From IMG/VR virus record IMGVR_UViG_3300037193_002017, positions 1 to 64,000 of that record: 64,000 bases of DNA; one strand, given 5' to 3'. A program made the translations under genes and the position numbers. This document shows, piece after piece, positions 24,637 through 54,718 of the stretch (positions are counted from its first letter, which is position 1; each line of letters begins with the position of its first letter). The notes under the pieces are model-generated. The model ran no database searches and was not told the DNA's origin. It was given only the letters and a program-made list of their open reading frames with translations. The stretch comes from a virus.

Positions 24637-26013
24637 TTACATGGCTTCTGACCTGTCACGATACCCTCGCCTCCTGTTCCGCCAATCCTCCAGGAAGATC
24701 GTTTGGGCGGAATTTGGGAGATCAACTTCGGCAGGCCGCTTCACCAGGCTGACACGGCCCCACAGCGTCTCCCAGCCCAGGTTCCCCATCGCCCTCCAGA
24801 AGATCTCCTCCATGCCGTCGAGGCGCTCCTGCCGCATGTCCGGCGTCGGGTGCTGATACACGCCCTTGATGCCGGGCCGTTTGTGGCCGGCCTGCTCGAA
24901 GGCGAGCGCGGCCCGCACGCCGATCTGGTCCTGGAGCGAGTCGTGGAGGTGACGCAGGCCGCGCATCGTCAGCCCCGGCGCGAGCGGCTTCCACTCCTCG
25001 CGGTAGGAAGCACCCTGCCGCTTTTTGCGCTCGGGCCGGCCGTCGGCCGCGGGACGCAGGTACTGCTTGCCCCAGTTGTTGCGGCGCCACCACTTCCCGT
25101 TGGGCGTGCACAGCACCCAGTCGTACGGCCAGTCGGCGAGGTGGTACTGCCACAGCCGTGCCAGGAACGGCGGCAGGTCCAGGTCGCGGACGCGGTACTT
25201 GTTCTTCACGGGCTCGAGCCGCATGACGGTGCCGAGCTTCTTGCCGTCGACGTCACGGTCCTCGTACTCCGCGACCTCCTGGACGACACGCAGGACCGGG
25301 CACTCCCACATGCTGTTCCCCCACGCCTGCCTGCGGGTGAGCAGGCAGTGCTCTCGCTGCAGCCCGATTCCCTCACCCCAGTTGACCCCCGTGAACATCG
25401 TGGTGAGCACGTGCAGACCCTTGGCCGGCCCCAAGCGGTCAGCGACCTGCAGAACCGCTTCGGGGGAGTGGAGCTGCTTCTTGTCGTTGCCGCTCACGGG
25501 GACGACGGCGGGAGTGTGGTCCACCGGCTTGGTGCGCTTGCGCCCGAAGACCGGGTTGAGCGGCAGCCAGCGCGCGTCGACGGCGCCCGTGAGGATGGTG
25601 GACAGCAGCGACACACAGTGCCCCTTGGTGACGTCGTCGCACGGCAGGCCCATCTGCCAGGAGTCGACGTCGAACCAGGTGATCGAAATCAGCGGCGCGT
25701 GCTCCCACTTCGGCAGGATGTACTTGTCGAGGTTGTCCCAGCGGGTGTCCATCGTGCGGCCCCGCTTGGGGCGCTCGGCCATGTACTTCCTGGCGAACTT
25801 CCCGAACGGTGAGCGGTACAGGTCCGGATCGATCCAGGTGCCTTCCTTGATCTTCCGTTCCTGCTCTTCACCCCACTCCTCCGCCTTGTTCTTGGTCGGG
25901 AATCCCGGCTCGCTGCCGACGCTGCCGTCGGGTTTCTTGTATCGCGCCCTCCACGTGAACTGCTTCGTCTGCTTGCCATCACGGACTTTGTAGACCTTTT
26001 GTGCGTAGGCCAT
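24637..26013 (-). CDS. int: Tyrosine recombinase (integrase) of prophage B
   Basis: A 458-residue protein. Residues 1-60 are an arm-binding-like domain rich in Arg/Lys and aromatic residues, 65-165 a SAM-like core-binding domain, 175-430 the catalytic domain. Box II reads MRGLRHLHDS (Arg353, His354), then AGHKRP (375-379) and the likely nucleophile Tyr385 in GVYQH. The usual first Arg in TGLR is Asn211 (TGVNWGEG) and the box II His is Arg350. It lies 21 bases from the tRNA fragment, the typical int-att layout. Confidence 0.9.
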   Translation of the reverse strand: MAYAQKVYKVRDGKQTKQFTWRARYKKPDGSVGSEPGFPTKNKAEEWGEEQERKIKEGTWIDPDLYRSPFGKFARKYMAERPKRGRTMDTRWDNLDKYILPKWEHAPLISITWFDVDSWQMGLPCDDVTKGHCVSLLSTILTGAVDARWLPLNPVFGRKRTKPVDHTPAVVPVSGNDKKQLHSPEAVLQVADRLGPAKGLHVLTTMFTGVNWGEGIGLQREHCLLTRRQAWGNSMWECPVLRVVQEVAEYEDRDVDGKKLGTVMRLEPVKNKYRVRDLDLPPFLARLWQYHLADWPYDWVLCTPNGKWWRRNNWGKQYLRPAADGRPERKKRQGASYREEWKPLAPGLTMRGLRHLHDSLQDQIGVRAALAFEQAGHKRPGIKGVYQHPTPDMRQERLDGMEEIFWRAMGNLGWETLWGRVSLVKRPAEVDLPNSAQTIFLEDWRNRRRGYRDRSEAM

Positions 26014-34164: not shown

Positions 34165-34742
34165 CACCGACCAGCGCATGCCGCCCCTCGCCCGCCGACA
34201 TGCACCCCCGCCGCACTACGCCCGCCCCGGCAGCCTCGGCCAAACCCACCACCCCCACCCCGGCACCGCCCGTACCGTCCCGGCCGCAGAACACCGCCCC
34301 GGCGCCGGCCGAGGCACCCCGCCCGTACGTGCCGCGCCGCCTGACGCTCGCCGAGGCCGTCGCTCCCGGCAAGTTGCGCAACAAAGAGCACCTGCGCAGC
34401 CTGTTCCCCCGCGCCGTCCGGATCAGCCGCATGCACCCCGAAGCACGGTTGGTCGCCCTGACCCTCCTCGGCCACGCCCACTTCAAGACCGGCCTGGTCA
34501 GCCCCGCGCGCCGCCCCAACATGACGCAGCTCGCCGAGGAGACCGGCCTCACCACCGGCCAGGTCGAGGTGCAGATCCACGTCCTGACCCAGCGCGGCTG
34601 GCTCTACACCCGCCCCCTCACCCAGGGCCGCCACGCCGGTGAGGAGGGCCTGTTCGTGGCCGTGCCCGCCCTGCTCCTCGAGCACCTGCGCGCTGCCCGC
34701 TCCGCACACGCCGAGCAGACCGCCGACGGCGGCACCGAGTGA
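34161..34742 (+). CDS. Winged-helix DNA-binding protein
   Basis: This encodes 193 residues from GTG 34161. The first 55 are Pro/Ala-rich and probably disordered. Residues 75-175 look like a winged helix-turn-helix: SRMHPEARLVALTLLGHAHF, then MTQLAEETGLTTGQVEVQIH, recognition and wing RGWLYTRPL. It lies just upstream of the candidate replication initiator, which has a similar start, so it may act with it or regulate it. Confidence 0.6.
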   Translation: MTPTSACRPSPADMHPRRTTPAPAASAKPTTPTPAPPVPSRPQNTAPAPAEAPRPYVPRRLTLAEAVAPGKLRNKEHLRSLFPRAVRISRMHPEARLVALTLLGHAHFKTGLVSPARRPNMTQLAEETGLTTGQVEVQIHVLTQRGWLYTRPLTQGRHAGEEGLFVAVPALLLEHLRAARSAHAEQTADGGTE

Positions 34743-34846
34743 GCCGCCCCCGCAGGCCCTGCCGCCGGGCGGCCCGGGCCCTGGCCCTCCTCTGTGCCGC
34801 GCTGACCACGGCCGCCCTCGTCCTCACCGCCTGCACCCACCCCTGA
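34739..34846 (+). CDS. 35-residue lipopeptide with LTAC lipobox
   Basis: GTG at 34739 overlaps the previous stop (GTGA). The 35-codon frame encodes a basic N-terminus (SRPRRPCRRAARAL), a hydrophobic stretch and LVLTACTHP. The LTAC sequence is a good lipobox, leaving a mature peptide of only four residues. Too short for usual gene prediction; expression is unproved. Confidence 0.4.
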   Translation: MSRPRRPCRRAARALALLCAALTTAALVLTACTHP

Positions 34847-34868
34847 CCCGCGCTCCAAGGAAGGCTCT

Positions 34869-36740
34869 GTGTCCGCTGCGCACGCTGCCGCTGCTGAGCC
34901 CCGCCACACCCGTGGCGGGGCCAGCAGCGCTGCCGTGCGCACCCGCGCGCGCCGCCCTCAGCGACGCACGGTGCAGACGGTGGAGATCCCCGAGCGCGTC
35001 TACCGCGGCTCCCACTACTCGGACGCGTTCGTCAAGGCGTGGGCAAAAATAGCCGCCCTCGACGTCGACACCAACGAAGAACACTGCAACGCCCACGTCA
35101 CCGAACTCGCCCGCTTCTCCGGCCTGTCGGTGCGCACCTTCCAGCGCGCCCTCACCGAGGGCCGCACCCCAGGCCCGGACGGCGGCCCGCCAGAGTTCTC
35201 CACCCGCCGCATGACCCGGAAGACGGGTGTCGGCCGCACAGCGATCCGAGAAGTCCGCCCCGTCGTCGAAGGCGAGCGGTACGTCACCGTGTCCGTCGCG
35301 ATGTGCGATGCCCTCGAGCCGCGCCGCCTGCGCGCCGCCCTCCTCCTCGCGCACACCGCCAAGTACACCCCCGGCTACGAGCCGACCGCCGCCGAACTGG
35401 CGGGCGAGCTGTTCCACCACCACGACACCAGCGCCGGGCAGTCGCTCTCGGAGCGCACCGCGCGCCGCATCATGCGCGACCTCGAGCAGACGGGCTGGGC
35501 CAGCATCGGCCACCGTGCCGGCTACCAGGGCCGCCACACCCTCACCGTCCACCGCCATCCGATCCGCCCCGCCGAGCAGCTCGCCCTGGACCTCGACGTC
35601 CCGGCCGCCGACACATCTGCTGGCCCGGTCGACTCGGCCGGGCCGGGTGCGGACAACCATGGCGGATCCGGTCCGGCCGCCCCTGGCGGATCCCTCGCGA
35701 TCAAGGAAGACAGCGGGGTTGTTACTGACGAGGTTGTTGCGCCCCAGGAGGTGGGTGGTTCCCGCCGTAGGCGAGTGACCGGTAGTAAGCCCGCGATCGA
35801 CGCGCGTGACCTCGCTGACGGCACGTTCGGGCCCGGCGCTGCTCGCGCTCCGCGCGGGAACCACCCCGCCCCCACCCTCACCACCGCCGGGAAGCCCGCG
35901 TACGCCGGGCCGGAACTGCGCTGGACCAAGCGCATCCACGACAGCCTCGCCCCCGTACGCCACCACCTCGACGGCATCAGCCGGTTCATGCTGCGCAAGG
36001 TCGCCCGCGAGATCGGCCGCCAGCTCGACCAGGCCGCCCACACCCTGATGACCCCGCAGCGGATGGCCGCCCGCATCGCCACCCGCTACCGCGACGCCGG
36101 ACCCATCCGCGACATGGGCGCCTGGCTCCTCGCCGTCGCCATCACCCCCAAGGGCTGCGGCCAGCCGCTGTGCGAAGACTCGAGCATCTGGCCCACCGGC
36201 GAACCCTGCGAGACCTGCACCGTCAACCGGCAGACCACCAGCGAGCACTGGCGGCGCGCCCGCGCCTGGGGCGACCAGCTCGCCGAGCTCCGCGCCCGCC
36301 GGGCATCTGAGACCGCCCCCGTGCGGGCGACGTACCGGCAGCGCTCCGCGGCCCCCGACGAGGAGGTCCTGGCGGTGGCCGCCGCGCACGGCCCGGCGAC
36401 CGCGCTGCACGTCTACGGCGTGTACCGGGCCGGACCCGTGCTCCGCGCCCAGTACGGGCACCTGCCCGCCGCTGCCGGCGCCGCCCCGCACCAGCCCGCT
36501 GCGCCCGCTCCCCTTCGCATGCCCGAGGAGACGCCCATGCCCGACCACCGCGGCTACATGCCCGCCGAGTTCCGCCGCGCGGCCGGCCGGGCCCCCGCCG
36601 AGGGCGCGCTCGCCATCGCCTGCCCGCAGCCCGGCTGCCTCGCCGAGGAAGGGCAGCCGTGCACGACCCAGCGCGGCCGACGCCGCGCACCACACGAAGC
36701 CCGCACGACCGCCGCCGAGACGCGCGGAGAGGAGAGCTGA
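34869..36740 (+). CDS. Large DNA-binding protein, candidate replication initiator
   Basis: This 623-residue protein from GTG 34869 has AAGGAAGG upstream. Residues 40-130 form a helix-turn-helix unit (HVTELARFSGLSVRTFQRAL). A second (SLSERTARRIMRDLEQTGWA) lies near residues 193-212. The centre is low complexity; residues 355-470 are helical with a Cys group (CGQPLCEDSS, GEPCETC). Near residue 580 CPQPGCLAEEGQPC suggests a zinc finger. Two winged helices resemble plasmid and phage initiators. No helicase or primase motif was found, so the role is inferred. Confidence 0.55.
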   Translation: MSAAHAAAAEPRHTRGGASSAAVRTRARRPQRRTVQTVEIPERVYRGSHYSDAFVKAWAKIAALDVDTNEEHCNAHVTELARFSGLSVRTFQRALTEGRTPGPDGGPPEFSTRRMTRKTGVGRTAIREVRPVVEGERYVTVSVAMCDALEPRRLRAALLLAHTAKYTPGYEPTAAELAGELFHHHDTSAGQSLSERTARRIMRDLEQTGWASIGHRAGYQGRHTLTVHRHPIRPAEQLALDLDVPAADTSAGPVDSAGPGADNHGGSGPAAPGGSLAIKEDSGVVTDEVVAPQEVGGSRRRRVTGSKPAIDARDLADGTFGPGAARAPRGNHPAPTLTTAGKPAYAGPELRWTKRIHDSLAPVRHHLDGISRFMLRKVAREIGRQLDQAAHTLMTPQRMAARIATRYRDAGPIRDMGAWLLAVAITPKGCGQPLCEDSSIWPTGEPCETCTVNRQTTSEHWRRARAWGDQLAELRARRASETAPVRATYRQRSAAPDEEVLAVAAAHGPATALHVYGVYRAGPVLRAQYGHLPAAAGAAPHQPAAPAPLRMPEETPMPDHRGYMPAEFRRAAGRAPAEGALAIACPQPGCLAEEGQPCTTQRGRRRAPHEARTTAAETRGEES

Positions 36741-36743
36741 CCC

Positions 36744-37064
36744 ATGCCCAGTGACCACGGCATCGTCCTGTGCGACGACTGCCTCGAGCGGATCCGGTGG
36801 GCGATCACCGTCAACGGCCGCCGCCAGGCCGTCAACGCCGACCCCGATGAGAAGGGGAACCTGGCCGTCTACAAAGACGGCACCGGCACCCTGCGCGCCC
36901 GCGTTCTCACCGCCGAGCGGGACCGCCTCGAGGGCACCGAGTGGCAGGCCATGCCCCACGCCGCCACCTGCACCAACCCCCGCCCCCGGCCCCGCACCCC
37001 CAGCAGGCCCGGCCGCCGCGCCGCCGTACGCCCCGGCAACTGGCCGAACAGGTGGACGCGATGA
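36744..37064 (+). CDS. Small protein with Cys pair
   Basis: This 106-residue protein has GGAGAG upstream. It begins with HGIVLCDDCLERIRWAITVN, a C-x-x-C, and has HAATC near residue 76 as a possible third ligand pair. The C-terminus is basic, Pro-rich. It is linked to the next gene through an 11-codon frame. Function unknown. Confidence 0.5.
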   Translation: MPSDHGIVLCDDCLERIRWAITVNGRRQAVNADPDEKGNLAVYKDGTGTLRARVLTAERDRLEGTEWQAMPHAATCTNPRPRPRTPSRPGRRAAVRPGNWPNRWTR

Positions 37065-37096
37065 GGACCGCCGGGCAGCCCGGGGGTGAGGCATGA
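37061..37096 (+). CDS. Possible 11-residue coupling minigene
   Basis: ATG at 37061 overlaps the upstream stop (ATGA) and its own TGA overlaps the next ATG at 37093 (ATGA). It encodes MRTAGQPGGEA. Such a short bridge could pass ribosomes from one gene to the next. It may be chance; no separate ribosome site is seen. Confidence 0.25.
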   Translation: MRTAGQPGGEA

Positions 37097-37305
37097 GCGT
37101 CCCCGAGTTCCGCGAGCACCTCGCGGAGGACGTCCCGACCGGCTCGTTCGGCGGCTCCCGGCCGCCCCTGCCCGCGCACATCACACCGTGCACGCCCGAC
37201 GAGCAGGCCCGGCACTACGCCGACCTCGCCGACGCCCTCTGCAGCTTCCGCGTCGGCGACGCCCTCCGCCGCCACCAGCCTGCCAGCAAGGAGGCGCAAG
37301 CCTGA
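37093..37305 (+). CDS. Small hypothetical protein
   Basis: A 70-residue protein with GGGGGTGAGG upstream. Residues 1-30 contain FREHLAEDVPTGSFGG; residues 35-62 are helical (EQARHYADLADALCSFRVGD). Its stop overlaps the next ATG by one base. Similar small proteins are frequent in actinophage early regions; function unknown. Confidence 0.5.
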   Translation: MSVPEFREHLAEDVPTGSFGGSRPPLPAHITPCTPDEQARHYADLADALCSFRVGDALRRHQPASKEAQA

Positions 37306-42111: not shown

Positions 42112-42795
42112 ATGATCTGCACCCTGTGCACGCACAACGAGCTCGAGTTCGGCAGCCTCTGCCCCTCCTGCACCCGCGCCACCCACGAACGCCTCACCCG
42201 CCTTCCCCGACTCTGGGCCTCCCTGGGGTCCTGGCTCACCCCCGGCGCCACCGGCAGCGCCCAGTACGGCGGTCGCGTCCGCCTCGCTGAGGCCCCCATG
42301 CCTCTCGACAGCGAGGTCCTGGACCTGATCGCCGAGGGCGGCATCGTCGGCGTCCTCGAGGACTGGCGCACCGCCGTCTACGAGACTCGCGGCTGGAGCC
42401 TGCCGCCCCGCGCGGCCAGCCTCGGTAACCGCGTCACCATCGCGGCCGGCGACCTCGACCACCATCTCGACTGGATCTCACGCTGGTACGCCGGCGAGGC
42501 CTTCGGCTGGGACATCCGCCGTCTCTTCCAGCGCGCCTCCCGCGTCGTACAGCCCGGCCACGACCTCGACCAGCCGAGGCCGACCTTCCTCGGCCACTGC
42601 ATCGCCGTGGACTCCTCCGGGGTGGTGTGCGGGGCGAAGATCTACGCGGACATGCGCACGTCGGTGCAGTGTGAGTGGTGCCTGTGCCCGTACCCGCCCT
42701 CCACCTGGCTGACCCTGCGGCGTTTCCAGCCGGGCAACGAGCACCTGCACGACGAGGACCAGGACGAGCCCGACATGGAGCCGGTGGCCGCCTGA
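42112..42795 (+). CDS. Zinc-finger protein with central helical domain
   Basis: This 227-residue protein opens with MICTLCTHNELEFGSLCPSC, two C-x-x-C pairs. The middle (residues 60-150) contains helical VLDLIAEGGIVGVLEDWRTA and RVTIAAGDLDHHLDWISRWY. CGAKIYADMRTSVQCEWCLC near residue 178 makes a second zinc site. The arrangement resembles RNA- or DNA-binding phage proteins; no family is certain. A bidirectional terminator follows. Confidence 0.55.
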   Translation: MICTLCTHNELEFGSLCPSCTRATHERLTRLPRLWASLGSWLTPGATGSAQYGGRVRLAEAPMPLDSEVLDLIAEGGIVGVLEDWRTAVYETRGWSLPPRAASLGNRVTIAAGDLDHHLDWISRWYAGEAFGWDIRRLFQRASRVVQPGHDLDQPRPTFLGHCIAVDSSGVVCGAKIYADMRTSVQCEWCLCPYPPSTWLTLRRFQPGNEHLHDEDQDEPDMEPVAA

Positions 42796-42837: not shown

Positions 42838-42876
42838 GAGCCCCGCCGCCCCACTTCTCCTGGGGCGGCGGGGCTC
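42838..42876. terminator. Bidirectional terminator
   Basis: Arms 42838-42853 and 42861-42876 are complementary over 16 bp around CTTCTCC. It separates the rightward early operon from the convergent HTH gene at 42886-43146. Confidence 0.85.
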
Positions 42877-42885
42877 GTCTGCGTT

Positions 42886-43146
42886 CTACGCCTCGTCGCC
42901 CTTCTCCAGGTCGGCGCGCTTGCCCTGGCGAATCCCTTCCTGGCGCGCTTTCCAGTACTGGTCGAACCAGGCCACGTCGTACTCCGGGCGCGAACTCCCG
43001 GGTCTGAACACAGGAGCCGGCCAGCCCTCGGCGGGGTTGGTCGCAAGCCGGTGGATGTATGTCCGGCTCACACCCGCTCGCTCTGCGAGTTTCGGGATGG
43101 TCATTGTCTCCCTCTCCGGCTCCTGCCGCTCGGGGGCATCGGGCAT
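42886..43146 (-). CDS. MerR/AlpA-type helix-turn-helix regulator
   Basis: ATG 43146 is preferred because GGGGAGGA sits 6 bases upstream; a GTG further out at 43185 lies inside the palindrome. The 86-residue product contains MTIPKLAERAGVSRTYIHRL, a MerR-like HTH, then a short wing and FDQYWKARQEGIRQGKRADL. It is divergent from the gene at 43296 across the 31-bp palindrome and may bind it. Confidence 0.75.
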   Translation of the reverse strand: MPDAPERQEPERETMTIPKLAERAGVSRTYIHRLATNPAEGWPAPVFRPGSSRPEYDVAWFDQYWKARQEGIRQGKRADLEKGDEA

Positions 43147-43160
43147 GCGGACATCCTCCC

Positions 43161-43191
43161 CGAGAAGTGTGGACAATGTCCACACTTCTCG
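43161..43191. promoter_or_regulatory. 31-bp perfect palindrome with paired DnaA-box-like sites
   Basis: Arms 43161-43175 and 43177-43191 are exact inverted repeats around A43176. The minus strand contains TTGTCCACA, the preferred Streptomyces DnaA box; the plus strand contains ATGTCCACA in the opposite arm. It lies between divergent genes, upstream of the membrane-protein cluster. It may be the operator of the adjacent HTH protein, a DnaA-binding site, or both. Confidence 0.75.
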
Positions 43192-43218
43192 CTACGGTCG
43201 TTCTCGGCACAACGGAAA

Positions 43219-43260
43219 ACCCCTCGACCCATGCGGAGTTGCAGCTCCGGGCCGAGGGGT
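43219..43260 (+). promoter_or_regulatory. Leader hairpin upstream of 43296 gene
   Basis: ACCCCTCG at 43219-43226 pairs with CGAGGGGT at 43253-43260, with an inner CGGAG/CTCCG stem at 43234-43249. It ends 35 bases before the GTG, between palindrome and gene, so it could act as an attenuator. Confidence 0.5.
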
Positions 43261-43295: not shown

Positions 43296-43628
43296 GTGGC
43301 AGACACTACCCAGCCCGATCAGATCGACGTAGCCCTCAAGGTGCTGCTCGCCGAGCCCACCTACGCCGCACAGACCCTCACCAAGCTGGCCGGCCTCCTC
43401 CAACTGGACCCCGGCCAGCCGATGACCGGCCGCGACCTCGAGCGCGCCATCGACATCGCCGCCGAGGCCGTCCTCACCCGACTGCCCGACGTCGTCGCCC
43501 GCGACAGCATGCAGCGCATGTACCGGGCCCTCCCGGACCGGTCGGCCACGGTCACCCGCGGCGAGTACGCCCTCCTCCTGCGCCAGGCTGCCAAGGACCT
43601 CGACGCCGTACGAGGTGACCGCCGATGA
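43296..43628 (+). CDS. Hypothetical helical protein
   Basis: GTG 43296 has GAAGGGA upstream and lies after the leader hairpin. The 110-residue product is helical: IDVALKVLLAEPTYAAQTL, GRDLERAIDIAAEAVLTRL, DVVARDSMQRMYRALPDRS. A MazG-like or DNA-binding fold is possible but no residues are diagnostic. It overlaps the next gene by 4 bases. First gene of the rightward operon controlled at 43.2 kb. Confidence 0.55.
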   Translation: MADTTQPDQIDVALKVLLAEPTYAAQTLTKLAGLLQLDPGQPMTGRDLERAIDIAAEAVLTRLPDVVARDSMQRMYRALPDRSATVTRGEYALLLRQAAKDLDAVRGDRR

Positions 43629-43834
43629 GCCGGAAACCCACCACGGCCGAGCGCGTCGCCGCGCTCCACCGCCAGTGCGCCGCCGACTACCGCGCCGCCC
43701 ACGCGAACCACGACAGCGTCGACCACCTGGACCTCGTGCACGGCCTGGAGGTCGGCTACGACCCGCACGCCCAGGACCTGAACACGCTGGCCACCGAGTC
43801 CGCCGCCGCACGCCTCGACCACGACGCCGACTGA
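43625..43834 (+). CDS. Small hypothetical protein
   Basis: A 69-residue protein from ATG 43625. It is rich in His and Asp (AHANHDSVDHLDLVHGLEVG), a helical pattern with possible metal binding. A strong hairpin follows. Function unknown. Confidence 0.5.
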   Translation: MSRKPTTAERVAALHRQCAADYRAAHANHDSVDHLDLVHGLEVGYDPHAQDLNTLATESAAARLDHDAD

Positions 43835-43848
43835 ACCCCGCCAGACCG

Positions 43849-43882
43849 CCGCGCCCCGGCACATCCCCCGGCCGGGGCGCGG
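43849..43882 (+). terminator. Hairpin before membrane-protein cluster
   Basis: CCGCGCCCCGGC at 43849-43860 and GCCGGGGCGCGG at 43871-43882 form a perfect 12-bp stem with a 10-base loop, 24 bases before the GTG at 43907. It can terminate or reduce transcription into the cluster. Confidence 0.65.
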
Positions 43883-43906
43883 CCTCCCCACGCACTGGAG
43901 TCCTTC

Positions 43907-45514
43907 GTGATCCTGGACCAGCCCTACGCGAGAGCGGCGGCCGAGTACTGGCCCACCGCCCTCGCCGCCGGCCTCCTCCTCACCACCCTCGCAGGCCTGT
44001 GCTGGCTGGTCGTGCGGCGTACCAGCGGCGCCGTCCTCACCGCCGGGATCGGCGCGCTCGTCTGCACCGCCTACACCGCCGACACCTCCTGGCGGTTCGC
44101 CGAGCACCGCCTGGACATGGCCGACCACACCGAGCGCCTGGTGATGTTCGCCGCCGGTGAGGTCGCCCTCCTCGCCTGCGCGGTCATGGCCCGAGCCAAC
44201 AAACGCGCCACCGCCACCGAGGACACCGCCGGCACCCCCGGCGTACCCGGCGTACTCGTGTGGACCATCACCGGCGTCCAGGTCATCCCCGCCTACTCCG
44301 AGTCCGGCATCATCGGCGGCACCGTCCGCGCCGTCTTCGGCCCCGTCATGGCCGCCCTGCTCTGGCACCTCGCCATGGGCCTGGAGATCCGCGTCGCCAA
44401 ACCGCAGGCCCTCTCCACCGGACTGCCCGCGCAGATCGGCCACGAGCTGCGCGAACGCCTGCTGTCCTACCTCGGACTGGCGACCCGGAACCGTACCGCG
44501 GAACAGATCAGCCGCGACCGCGCGACCGCCCGCGCCGTACGCCTCGCCTCCCGCCGCCACCGCGGCTGGTGGGCCCGCGCCGCCCTCAAGGCCGCGGTGG
44601 CCCGCTCCGGGGCGGCCGTCGACGGCGAGCGCCGCCACCAGCTCCTGCAGCTGCTCGCCGCACGCCGTACCGCGGCCGAGCTGAGCACCGTACCCGTCGT
44701 CTCGCCGTGGGTAGCCCAGCCCCTACCCGAGCCCTACCCGCCTACCCCGCTCGGCGTCACCGGCGCCGAACTGCGCGCCATGGACCCGATGGACGCCATC
44801 CTCCGGATACACGCCGCACGGCCCGACGCGACGCCCGCAGAGACCGCCGCGCTGTGCACGGAGTACGGCGTACCCGTCTCCGAGACCCTCGTACGGGTAG
44901 CCCTCCGCGCGGGCAACCCCGACCCCACCCCGCCCCCCGCCCCGGCCGTACCCGAGCGGCCCCAGCTCCACGCCGCACCCGCACCCGTGCCCGGCCCGCA
45001 GGACGCGCCCGTACCGGCCCTACCCGAGGCGGCCGAGCACGAGTACACCAGCCCCGGCCTGCACCTCGACCTCATCACCGCCCCCCGGGTACACCCCCAG
45101 GTAGCCTGCGCCGTCCCCGCCGCCCACGCCCGTACCCGGCCCGGCCGCACCGAGGTACACGCCCGCCTACCCGAACAGCCCGAAGCCATCCAGCACACCA
45201 CCGAGGGAGAACGCGCTACCCGGCCCGCGCAGCCCTCTACCCGGCCCGGGGTAGCCGCTCTACCCGAGCCCGTACCCGTACCCGGGGTAGACCCCAGGCC
45301 CGGCCCGGACGCCCTACCCCACCCCACGGGTACGGCGGGTAGGGACGGTGGCGGGGAGCAGGATCCGCTGCTCGACCGGGCCCGCGAGGTAGACGCCGCT
45401 CACCGCCGTACCCACCGCCGCCCGGCCAGCGTCCAGACCCTCAAGAAGGAGCTGCGGGTAGGGCAGAAGAAGGCCCAGCAGCTCCGTGACCTCCTCGCAG
45501 GCGAGCCCGCATGA
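43907..45514 (+). CDS. DUF2637-type membrane protein with C-terminal HTH
   Basis: A 535-residue protein from GTG 43907. Residues 1-165 hold four to five membrane segments (TALAAGLLLTTLAGLCWLVV; GTVRAVFGPVMAALLWHLA), the DUF2637 pattern known from Streptomyces plasmids and mobile elements. Residues 170-260 are a basic cytoplasmic region; 260-480 are Pro-rich. Residues 485-535 (VDAAHRRTHRRPASVQTLKK, LRVGQKKAQQLRDLL) look like a helix-turn-helix. It may tether DNA to the membrane. The Pro-rich part is packed with TACCC motifs using rare GTA and CTA codons. Confidence 0.75.
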   Translation: MILDQPYARAAAEYWPTALAAGLLLTTLAGLCWLVVRRTSGAVLTAGIGALVCTAYTADTSWRFAEHRLDMADHTERLVMFAAGEVALLACAVMARANKRATATEDTAGTPGVPGVLVWTITGVQVIPAYSESGIIGGTVRAVFGPVMAALLWHLAMGLEIRVAKPQALSTGLPAQIGHELRERLLSYLGLATRNRTAEQISRDRATARAVRLASRRHRGWWARAALKAAVARSGAAVDGERRHQLLQLLAARRTAAELSTVPVVSPWVAQPLPEPYPPTPLGVTGAELRAMDPMDAILRIHAARPDATPAETAALCTEYGVPVSETLVRVALRAGNPDPTPPPAPAVPERPQLHAAPAPVPGPQDAPVPALPEAAEHEYTSPGLHLDLITAPRVHPQVACAVPAAHARTRPGRTEVHARLPEQPEAIQHTTEGERATRPAQPSTRPGVAALPEPVPVPGVDPRPGPDALPHPTGTAGRDGGGEQDPLLDRAREVDAAHRRTHRRPASVQTLKKELRVGQKKAQQLRDLLAGEPA

Positions 45515-52856: not shown

Positions 52857-53159
52857 ATGAGCGATCAACCGAAACGTGTCCGAGCCGGAGCCGTCGCCAA
52901 GGCAACCGCCGCCGAGCTCGATGACCTGGGGCTTGACCCGAAGACGAACGCCGCTGCGGCCTCCGCCCTCCGCCTCGCGAAGGTCATGGACTCGACTGCC
53001 GACCCCAAGGAGCTCGCCGCCGCCGGGCGCGAGCTCCGCCAGACCATGAATACAGCGCGTGGCCTCGCTCCCCCGAAGGCGCTCGGCGACCGGATCGACC
53101 AGCTGGCCGACCGGCGCGAGAAGCGGCTCTCCCCTCGGGCCGCTAAGGGCACCGCGTGA
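52857..53159 (+). CDS. Terminase small subunit
   Basis: A 100-residue protein with GGAGG upstream. It is basic and helical: KRVRAGAVAKATAAELDDLG, then LRLAKVMDSTADPKELAAAG, RQTMNTARGLAPPKALG. Its position, size and 4-base overlap with the large subunit identify it as the DNA-recognising small subunit. A classic HTH was not resolved. Confidence 0.75.
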   Translation: MSDQPKRVRAGAVAKATAAELDDLGLDPKTNAAAASALRLAKVMDSTADPKELAAAGRELRQTMNTARGLAPPKALGDRIDQLADRREKRLSPRAAKGTA

Positions 53160-54718
53160 TCGGCTGCCAGACACCGCGGATCCTGTCCGTGCCGTGGTAC
53201 CGACGCGTGGACACGGGGCGGTGGGACGGCACCGAGGACCAGGTCGCGCTGGACTTCCGCTCGCCCGCGGGCACGGAGTGCATCGAGCTCGCGGAGGAGG
53301 CGGGCCTCGACCTCGACATCTGGCAGCAGCTCGCCCTGCACCACAGCCTCGACGAGGATGCCGAGGGCCGGTGGACGTCGCTCGAGGTCGTCCTCAACAT
53401 CGCGCGCCAGAACGGCAAGGGCGGATACCTCGAGGCCAGACAGATCGGCGGCGTGATCCTCTTCGGGGACGAGCTCGTCATCCACACCGCGCACCAGTTC
53501 AACACCGCGCAGGAGAGCTTCCTTCGGCTCGACCGGATCTTCGAAGGGTCCGCGTCACTGAGTCGCCGCATCAAGCGCGTACGCCGCTCGCATGGCGAGG
53601 AGGGCTTCGAGTTCTTCAACGGCGCCAGGATCCGTTTCCTGGCGCGGGGCGGGGACAGCGGCCGCGGGTTCTCCGGTGACCTGGTCATCATGGACGAGGC
53701 CATGAAGCTGCGGGCCGCGCCCGTGGGCGCCCTCATGCCGGTGCTGTCCGCCCGCCGCAACCCTCAGCTCGTGTTCACCGGGTCGGCCGGTCTGGGGGCT
53801 GAGAGCGAGCAGCTGGCGCTGCTGCGGGCCCGTGCGATGGCGGAGGAGGGCGGGCCGGACCCGTCTTTGACGTACCTGGAGTACTCGATCGCGCCGCACG
53901 TGAAGGAGTGCCCGCGCGATGAGGACGGCCGGGTCGTGTGCACGGCTCATGACGACCGGGACGACGAGCGGTCGTTCGCCCGGGCCAACCCGGCGCTGGG
54001 CATCCGGATCCGCACGTCGTACGTACAGCGGGAGATGCGGGGCATGCGTGAGGACCTGTTCGACCGTGAGCGCCTCGGTGTGGGGGACTACCCGGAGGTC
54101 AGCGACGAGACGTGGCAGGTCATCGCGAAGGAGGCCTGGGAGGCGCTCACGGACGCCAGCTCGCGTCCGACGGACCCGGTGGCGTTCGCCATCGACACCA
54201 ACCCGGAGCGGACGTGGACGGCCATCTCGGTGGCCGCCGAGTCGTCGGGCGGTGGCCGGCACATCGAGGTCGTTGCCCACCAGCCCGGCACGGACTGGGT
54301 CGTGGACTGGGTTGCTGAGCGTGACGAGAAGTGGAAGCCATGCGCGTGGGTCATCGACGAGGGCGGTCCGGCCGGGTCGCTTGTGCCAGCGCTGCGGAAG
54401 AAGCTGGCCGGGAAGCACCCGGTGGGCAGCGACCTGGGGCGCGATCGCTTCCTGGTGTCGCCAAAGGTGCGGGAGATCGTGCAGGCCTGCGGCGCCTTCT
54501 ACGACCGGGTGAAGGACGGCTCACTCGCCCACATCGGCCAGTCACCGCTGGCGACCGCTCTCGCCGGCGCGAAGAAGCGCGACCTGGGTGATGCGTGGGC
54601 GTGGGCACGGCGCAGTGAGGGTGTGGACGTGAGCCCGCTGGTGGCCGGGACGTATGCGTTGTGGGGCTGGGAGAAGTTCCACGACGAGGAGCCGGAAGGG
54701 GCGCCGAACCTGTGGTGA
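53156..54718 (+). CDS. terL: Terminase large subunit
   Basis: A 520-residue GTG-start protein. The ATPase domain has a deviant Walker A, RQNGKG (residues 84-89 in NIARQNGKGGYL), and Walker B DLVIMDE (175-181), then LVFTGSAGLG as motif III. The nuclease domain starts near residue 340 with VAFAIDTNPERTWTAI (acidic Asp) and contains CAWVIDEGGPAGSL. The order and sequence type fit phage terminases of actinophages. It packages DNA into the prohead. Confidence 0.95.
   Translation: MIGCQTPRILSVPWYRRVDTGRWDGTEDQVALDFRSPAGTECIELAEEAGLDLDIWQQLALHHSLDEDAEGRWTSLEVVLNIARQNGKGGYLEARQIGGVILFGDELVIHTAHQFNTAQESFLRLDRIFEGSASLSRRIKRVRRSHGEEGFEFFNGARIRFLARGGDSGRGFSGDLVIMDEAMKLRAAPVGALMPVLSARRNPQLVFTGSAGLGAESEQLALLRARAMAEEGGPDPSLTYLEYSIAPHVKECPRDEDGRVVCTAHDDRDDERSFARANPALGIRIRTSYVQREMRGMREDLFDRERLGVGDYPEVSDETWQVIAKEAWEALTDASSRPTDPVAFAIDTNPERTWTAISVAAESSGGGRHIEVVAHQPGTDWVVDWVAERDEKWKPCAWVIDEGGPAGSLVPALRKKLAGKHPVGSDLGRDRFLVSPKVREIVQACGAFYDRVKDGSLAHIGQSPLATALAGAKKRDLGDAWAWARRSEGVDVSPLVAGTYALWGWEKFHDEEPEGAPNLW

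Follow-up and report, generated by a model that had tools for sequence, protein, structure and literature searches.

A probable operator palindrome beside a small winged-HTH gene of Streptomyces prophages

The palindrome and its surroundings

The window (the whole stretch of DNA analysed, 64 kb) is a portion of a 76,977-base IMG/VR record and has prophage-like surroundings, with an integrase gene (24637-26013, minus strand), CI/Cro-like HTH genes at 26.5-27.5 kb, and a large terminase gene (53156-54718). Between a small winged-HTH regulator gene (42886-43146, minus strand; 86 aa, recognition helix SRTYIHRLAT) and a divergent operon from 43296 onward lies an exact 31-bp palindrome, CGAGAAGTGTGGACA-A-TGTCCACACTTCTCG (43161-43191), of which the HTH protein is the proposed ligand. 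The ribosome-binding site of the HTH gene, read from the sequence as GGGGAGG (43155-43161, minus strand), abuts the palindrome. At its other end, the HTH gene is separated from the convergent gene 42112-42795 (plus strand), the last of its operon, by an inverted repeat with 16-bp arms that is probably a bidirectional terminator (42838-42876). The first gene of the divergent operon (43296-43628, plus strand) starts with GTG at 43296 and encodes a 110-aa protein of phrog_28251, a homologue of gp22 of Streptomyces phage VWB. It is followed by genes for a 69-aa protein and a 535-aa membrane-type protein (43625-45514, plus strand); the latter occupies the position that DUF2637 proteins have in relatives. 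Besides gp22-like genes, the relatives' divergent operons contain genes for membrane proteins with DUF2637, for ATPases of the FtsK/SpoIIIE type, or for a glycosyltransferase; operator-adjacent operons with DUF2637 and FtsK/SpoIIIE-type proteins were seen at L021, L028, L039, L048, L069, and L086.

The coordinates of the palindrome and its fully matched 15-bp arms, as given in a preliminary description of this locus, were reproduced. No exact palindrome (gap 0 or 1) in the window is longer, the runner-up having arms of 11 bp, and in 60 random first-order Markov (Markov-1) windows of 64 kb each the longest arms ranged from 8 to 14 bp and never reached 15 bp. Its 19-bp core, GTGTGGACA-A-TGTCCACAC (43167-43185), occurs once in the window even with three mismatches permitted. 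The two DnaA-box-like sequences described earlier on opposite strands were also located, TTGTCCACA on the minus strand (43168-43176) and ATGTCCACA on the plus strand (43176-43184); the second is present because the symmetry of the palindrome dictates it, and both 9-mers overlap at the central A.

The inner half of the palindrome doubles as the −35 element of a conserved promoter-like sequence that is directed away from the HTH gene and toward 43296. This element, TGGACA (43170-43175, plus strand), is found in nearly all clade-1 loci, and comparison places the −10 element, TACGGT (43193-43198, plus strand; TACGGTCG in its conserved form), two bases past the end of the palindrome. The arrangement TGGACA-N17-TACGGT is kept in nearly all clade-1 loci and has the counterpart TTGACA-N18-TACGTT in VWB. 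The overlap of the palindrome with this predicted promoter is given by consensus, T[GT]GAC[AG]-N17/18-[TC]ANNNT (mostly TACGGT). About 14 nt after the predicted transcription start lies a GC-rich leader hairpin (43219-43260, plus strand) that has no U tract on the plus strand; almost every leader that was folded has a strong GC-rich hairpin of variable sequence here, beginning about 13 nt after the predicted start. The VWB leader (L039, 3800-3900) contains repeated GGTGTGTCACCACC-type hairpins downstream of the gp22 promoter. In the close relatives L033 and L034 the hairpin interior, with its small bulge on one side (ATGT/ACAT), stands in exactly opposite orientations, and the central base of the operator is flipped as well; over the 140 bp compared the two are otherwise identical. 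Such a difference would follow from template switching at inverted repeats.

The HTH protein, a possible member of the MerR superfamily, had no match above the curated cut-offs of Pfam and NCBIfam, to this superfamily or otherwise (sub-threshold Pfam HTH matches only), and a PDB sequence search with its profile gave no significant match. A winged-HTH fold is suggested by a single-sequence AlphaFold model (pLDDT 76), whose best match among PDB folds had an E value of 0.03, with none below 0.001; weak likeness was to RacA, BldC, CbpM, and the MerR family, and a viral DNA-packaging protein was also among the best weak folds. PHROG gave weak matches to phrog_57, a terminase small subunit family (E 6.8e-5), and to phrog_66, an excisionase family (E 1.2e-4). 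A coding role of the palindrome, as part of a protein extended from GTG at 43185, was rejected: the distance is −44 in some relatives and −45 in others, so that the frame is not kept.

Conservation of the palindrome with its gene

We recovered 19 stretches from IMG/VR with the core pattern GTGTGGACANTGTCCACAC and, independently, 18 loci with the 86-aa HTH protein, mostly on the same contigs. In most of the protein-search loci the palindrome lies about 20 bp upstream of the HTH start, and those lacking the exact core have one or few changes (L021, L035, L038), VWB being the exception. Protein-only searches added 13 loci from bacterial genomes and identified HTH homologues in 24 of 393 genomes from the same genus group. 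An inverted repeat directly before the HTH start codon accompanies 49 of the 51 distinct homologue loci found by protein sequence alone, i.e., the site keeps a near-fixed position relative to the gene, and at 46 of the 51 no more than 5 of 300 shuffles match it. The palindrome is absent at the two exceptions, L053, where the gene is apparently damaged, and L071. The same or a near-same core precedes the homologous HTH gene at 32 distinct clade-1 loci (window counted), and in each of two whole Streptomyces genomes that carry the prophage a single site matches the core within two mismatches. Two circular plasmids from Streptomyces (L085 and L086; 93 and 52 kb), possible phage-plasmids, also have the HTH homologue with its operator.

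The core was additionally encountered on unrelated contigs (L003, L012, L018) in what look like repeated hairpins; no HTH homologue was found in the stretches examined. These hairpins are of the CCAGGTGTGGACA(n)TGTCCACACCTGG type with variable loops at L012 (4159-4185, 7019-7044, 14815-14840) and L018 (1211-1237), and one hairpin of this type directly follows a coat-protein-like gene in an unrelated metagenomic phage. The sharing of the core with this phage is apparently convergence.

Among the 49 loci, the recognition helix and the operator core pair without exception: SR[T/S] (or AR[T]) with TGGACA (n = 34), SRQ with TTGACR (n = 8), and RIRQLA-type helices with TTTGCG (n = 7). The operator of the window's clade is GAGAAGTGTGGACA-N-TGTCCACACTTCTC, that of VWB and its kin GAACCTCTTGACAATGTAAAGAGGTTC, that of L074 and L076 GAACCTCTGGACAATGTCCAGAGGTTC (slightly different in L074), and that of the third clade ACTTATTTGCGTTGACGCAAATAAGT-like. 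Loci fetched later, outside the set from which the rule was made, comprised five of SRQ/TTGACR (two on plasmids), two of SRS/TGGACA, and two near-copies of SRT/TGGACA, and every later-fetched SRQ, SRS, or SRT member that has an operator obeys the pairing. The correlation largely tracks phylogeny, with one internal switch alone clearly independent: on the protein tree, which is built from few columns and has several weak forks, the TGGACA class requires two origins, the second of which is nested in the SRQ/TTGACR proteins (enclosing group 98/99) and comes with a parallel Q-to-S change in the helix. Half-sites beyond the three-class rule occur at L102, L104, L107, L109, L113, and L114; the distant homologues L107, L113, and L114 have other strong palindromes in the same place. 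At L109, L113, and L114, RVSQLSR-type helices go with palindromes of 14-16 bp arms around TAGCCATATGGCTA, again in the same place, as a further operator class.

The half-site co-varies with the recognition helix, and the letters change while the symmetry stays, as one would expect where a regulator co-evolves with its own operator. Co-occurrence, fixed position, and this joint change of helix and half-site strongly support the palindrome as operator of the adjacent protein, which the preliminary description had named, as that of a MerR-like protein, as its alternative to a role of DnaA.

Alternative readings of the palindrome

The HTH protein could instead be an activator of the MerR kind, an excisionase, or a small terminase subunit, and the palindrome an activation, excision, or packaging site. 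The weak matches to phrog_57 and phrog_66 and the MerR-like folds of the model point in this direction, but the integrase and large terminase genes are 17 and 10 kb away, respectively, and in the main clades the site is tied to the promoter-like sequence. MerR activator promoters have spacers of 19-20 bp. The operator here spans the −35 element of a promoter with a 17-18 bp spacer, unlike such promoters, and because of this spacing occlusion of the promoter is favoured over activation by MerR-type DNA untwisting. We consider these roles unlikely.

A dual use, in which DnaA also binds the repressor operator of clade 1 and the host replication state thereby tunes derepression, could draw on the persistence of the two box-like 9-mers in most clade-1 operators. 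This persistence is, however, wholly accounted for by the half-site of the repressor, two isolated boxes overlapping at the central base are an unusual arrangement for DnaA, and variants that lose the box are tolerated, which leaves dual use very improbable.

More weight had been given in the preliminary description to host DnaA acting on two back-to-back boxes, with the palindrome as phage origin, titrating site, or replication-coupled promoter. TTGTCCACA is indeed the high-affinity Streptomyces box (PMC4285127) and is contained in 30 of the 32 clade-1 operators. The Streptomyces oriC, however, is about 950 bp long with clustered DnaA boxes, including high-affinity TTGTCCACA (PMC4285127), whereas in the 77-kb record no cluster of several boxes, as in an origin or a datA-like site, was found, but one exact box that shares one base with a 1-mismatch box. 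Exact TTRTCCACA occurs once in this record, within the palindrome, once or twice in three relatives, and not at all in complete VWB. Nor is the box kept at homologous sites: TTGTCCACA is in none of the 17 operators outside clade 1, VWB included, which nevertheless stay palindromic, while L021 and L035 have lost the canonical box but still have the gene with a near-palindrome. Moreover, the symmetry reaches well past each box. On the box counts and the absence of the box from operators of the other clades, an origin or titration site was rejected, DnaA-dependent use of any of these kinds being highly improbable. DnaA may still bind weakly, but nothing indicates selection for such binding. The DnaA-box likeness arises because the helix of this clade specifies the half-site TGTCCACA, in combination with an A/T centre.

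The accompanying claim that the phage has no recognisable replication enzymes is doubtful. Gene 34869-36740 (plus strand) encodes a 623-aa protein with an HTH_36 match right at the threshold of Pfam, a match to a phage zinc finger, and a weak PHROG match to 'replication initiation O-like', and is a candidate for the replication initiator; no iterons (direct repeats) were found around it (34500-37200).

An RNA element, with the palindrome forming a terminator or translational-control hairpin in the HTH mRNA, has a negligible probability and was rejected: a 14-bp stem beside the ribosome-binding site is possible, but the centre is a single base, the pair adjacent to it is conserved in the window's clade although unusable in a hairpin loop, the outer arm is frequently asymmetric, and the inner half serves also as −35 element.

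A putative repressor-operator switch and known systems

The locus is best read as a divergent repressor-operator switch with autoregulation, present in Streptomyces prophages and also on two plasmids. The palindrome is very probably the dimeric operator of the adjacent winged-HTH protein, which would repress divergently and control its own synthesis, and the protein probably silences the neighbouring prophage genes as well as its own gene. A homodimer would bind the palindrome and cover the −35 element and spacer, thereby keeping RNA polymerase from the divergent promoter and the operon from 43296 onward silent in the lysogen; because the bound dimer would span these elements, occlusion is the simplest mechanism. 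The HTH protein would also restrict its own synthesis, as the operator abuts the ribosome-binding site of its gene; this autoregulation is suggested by geometry, the promoter of the HTH gene not having been located.

The DUF2637 and FtsK/SpoIIIE-type genes resemble Streptomyces plasmid transfer and spread genes, and the switch therefore probably acts on accessory or host-interaction functions and not on the choice between lysis and lysogeny. It is conceivable, though we hold this to be only a tentative possibility, that operator and leader hairpin (43219-43260) make up a two-layer switch of a repressor and a hairpin attenuator or antiterminator with orientation-flipping interior, forming a portable prophage and plasmid module over the DUF2637 and FtsK/SpoIIIE transfer- or spread-like genes.

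In the collection of papers searched, none dealt with this regulator or with DnaA boxes in Streptomyces phages. The analysis replaces an attractive but mistaken interpretation, that the phage exploits host DnaA, by a well-supported family of regulators and operators of Streptomyces prophages whose code is visible: at one helix position, Q versus S/T corresponds to TTGAC versus TGGAC half-sites. Such a recognition code would make orthogonal regulators predictable and suggests a function for proteins now annotated as hypothetical, VWB gp21 included.

The region of gp21 and the gp22-gp24 intergenic region in Streptomyces phage VWB (AY320035), whose gp21 region proteins are annotated as hypothetical only, shares the homologous HTH protein (gp21, 42% identity to that of the window), the divergent gp22 homologue, the leader hairpin, and, at the equivalent place, a near-palindrome holding the −35 element (GAACCTCTTGACAATGTAAAGAGGTTC). 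Its half-site is GAACCTCTT-T/G-ACA, compared with AAGTGTGGACA here, and it lacks the DnaA box. The mismatch in VWB-type palindromes sits inside the −35 hexamer, as if the promoter required it. Small effector-less winged-HTH proteins of the MerR superfamily, i.e., BldC and RacA, are similar in size and weakly in fold, but have no significant sequence match to the HTH protein. BldC binds head to tail on direct repeats, whereas the site here is an inverted repeat. Divergent genes, a symmetric operator overlapping a promoter, and co-variation of helix and half-site are common to this locus and to autoregulated divergent repressor-operator pairs of phages and plasmids (for example, Cro/C2 or KorSA-type). 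It differs from these in its fold and in the single operator found, and the genes under control here would be gp22-like, DUF2637, and FtsK/SpoIIIE-type genes, not those of the CI-like region (26.5-27.5 kb).
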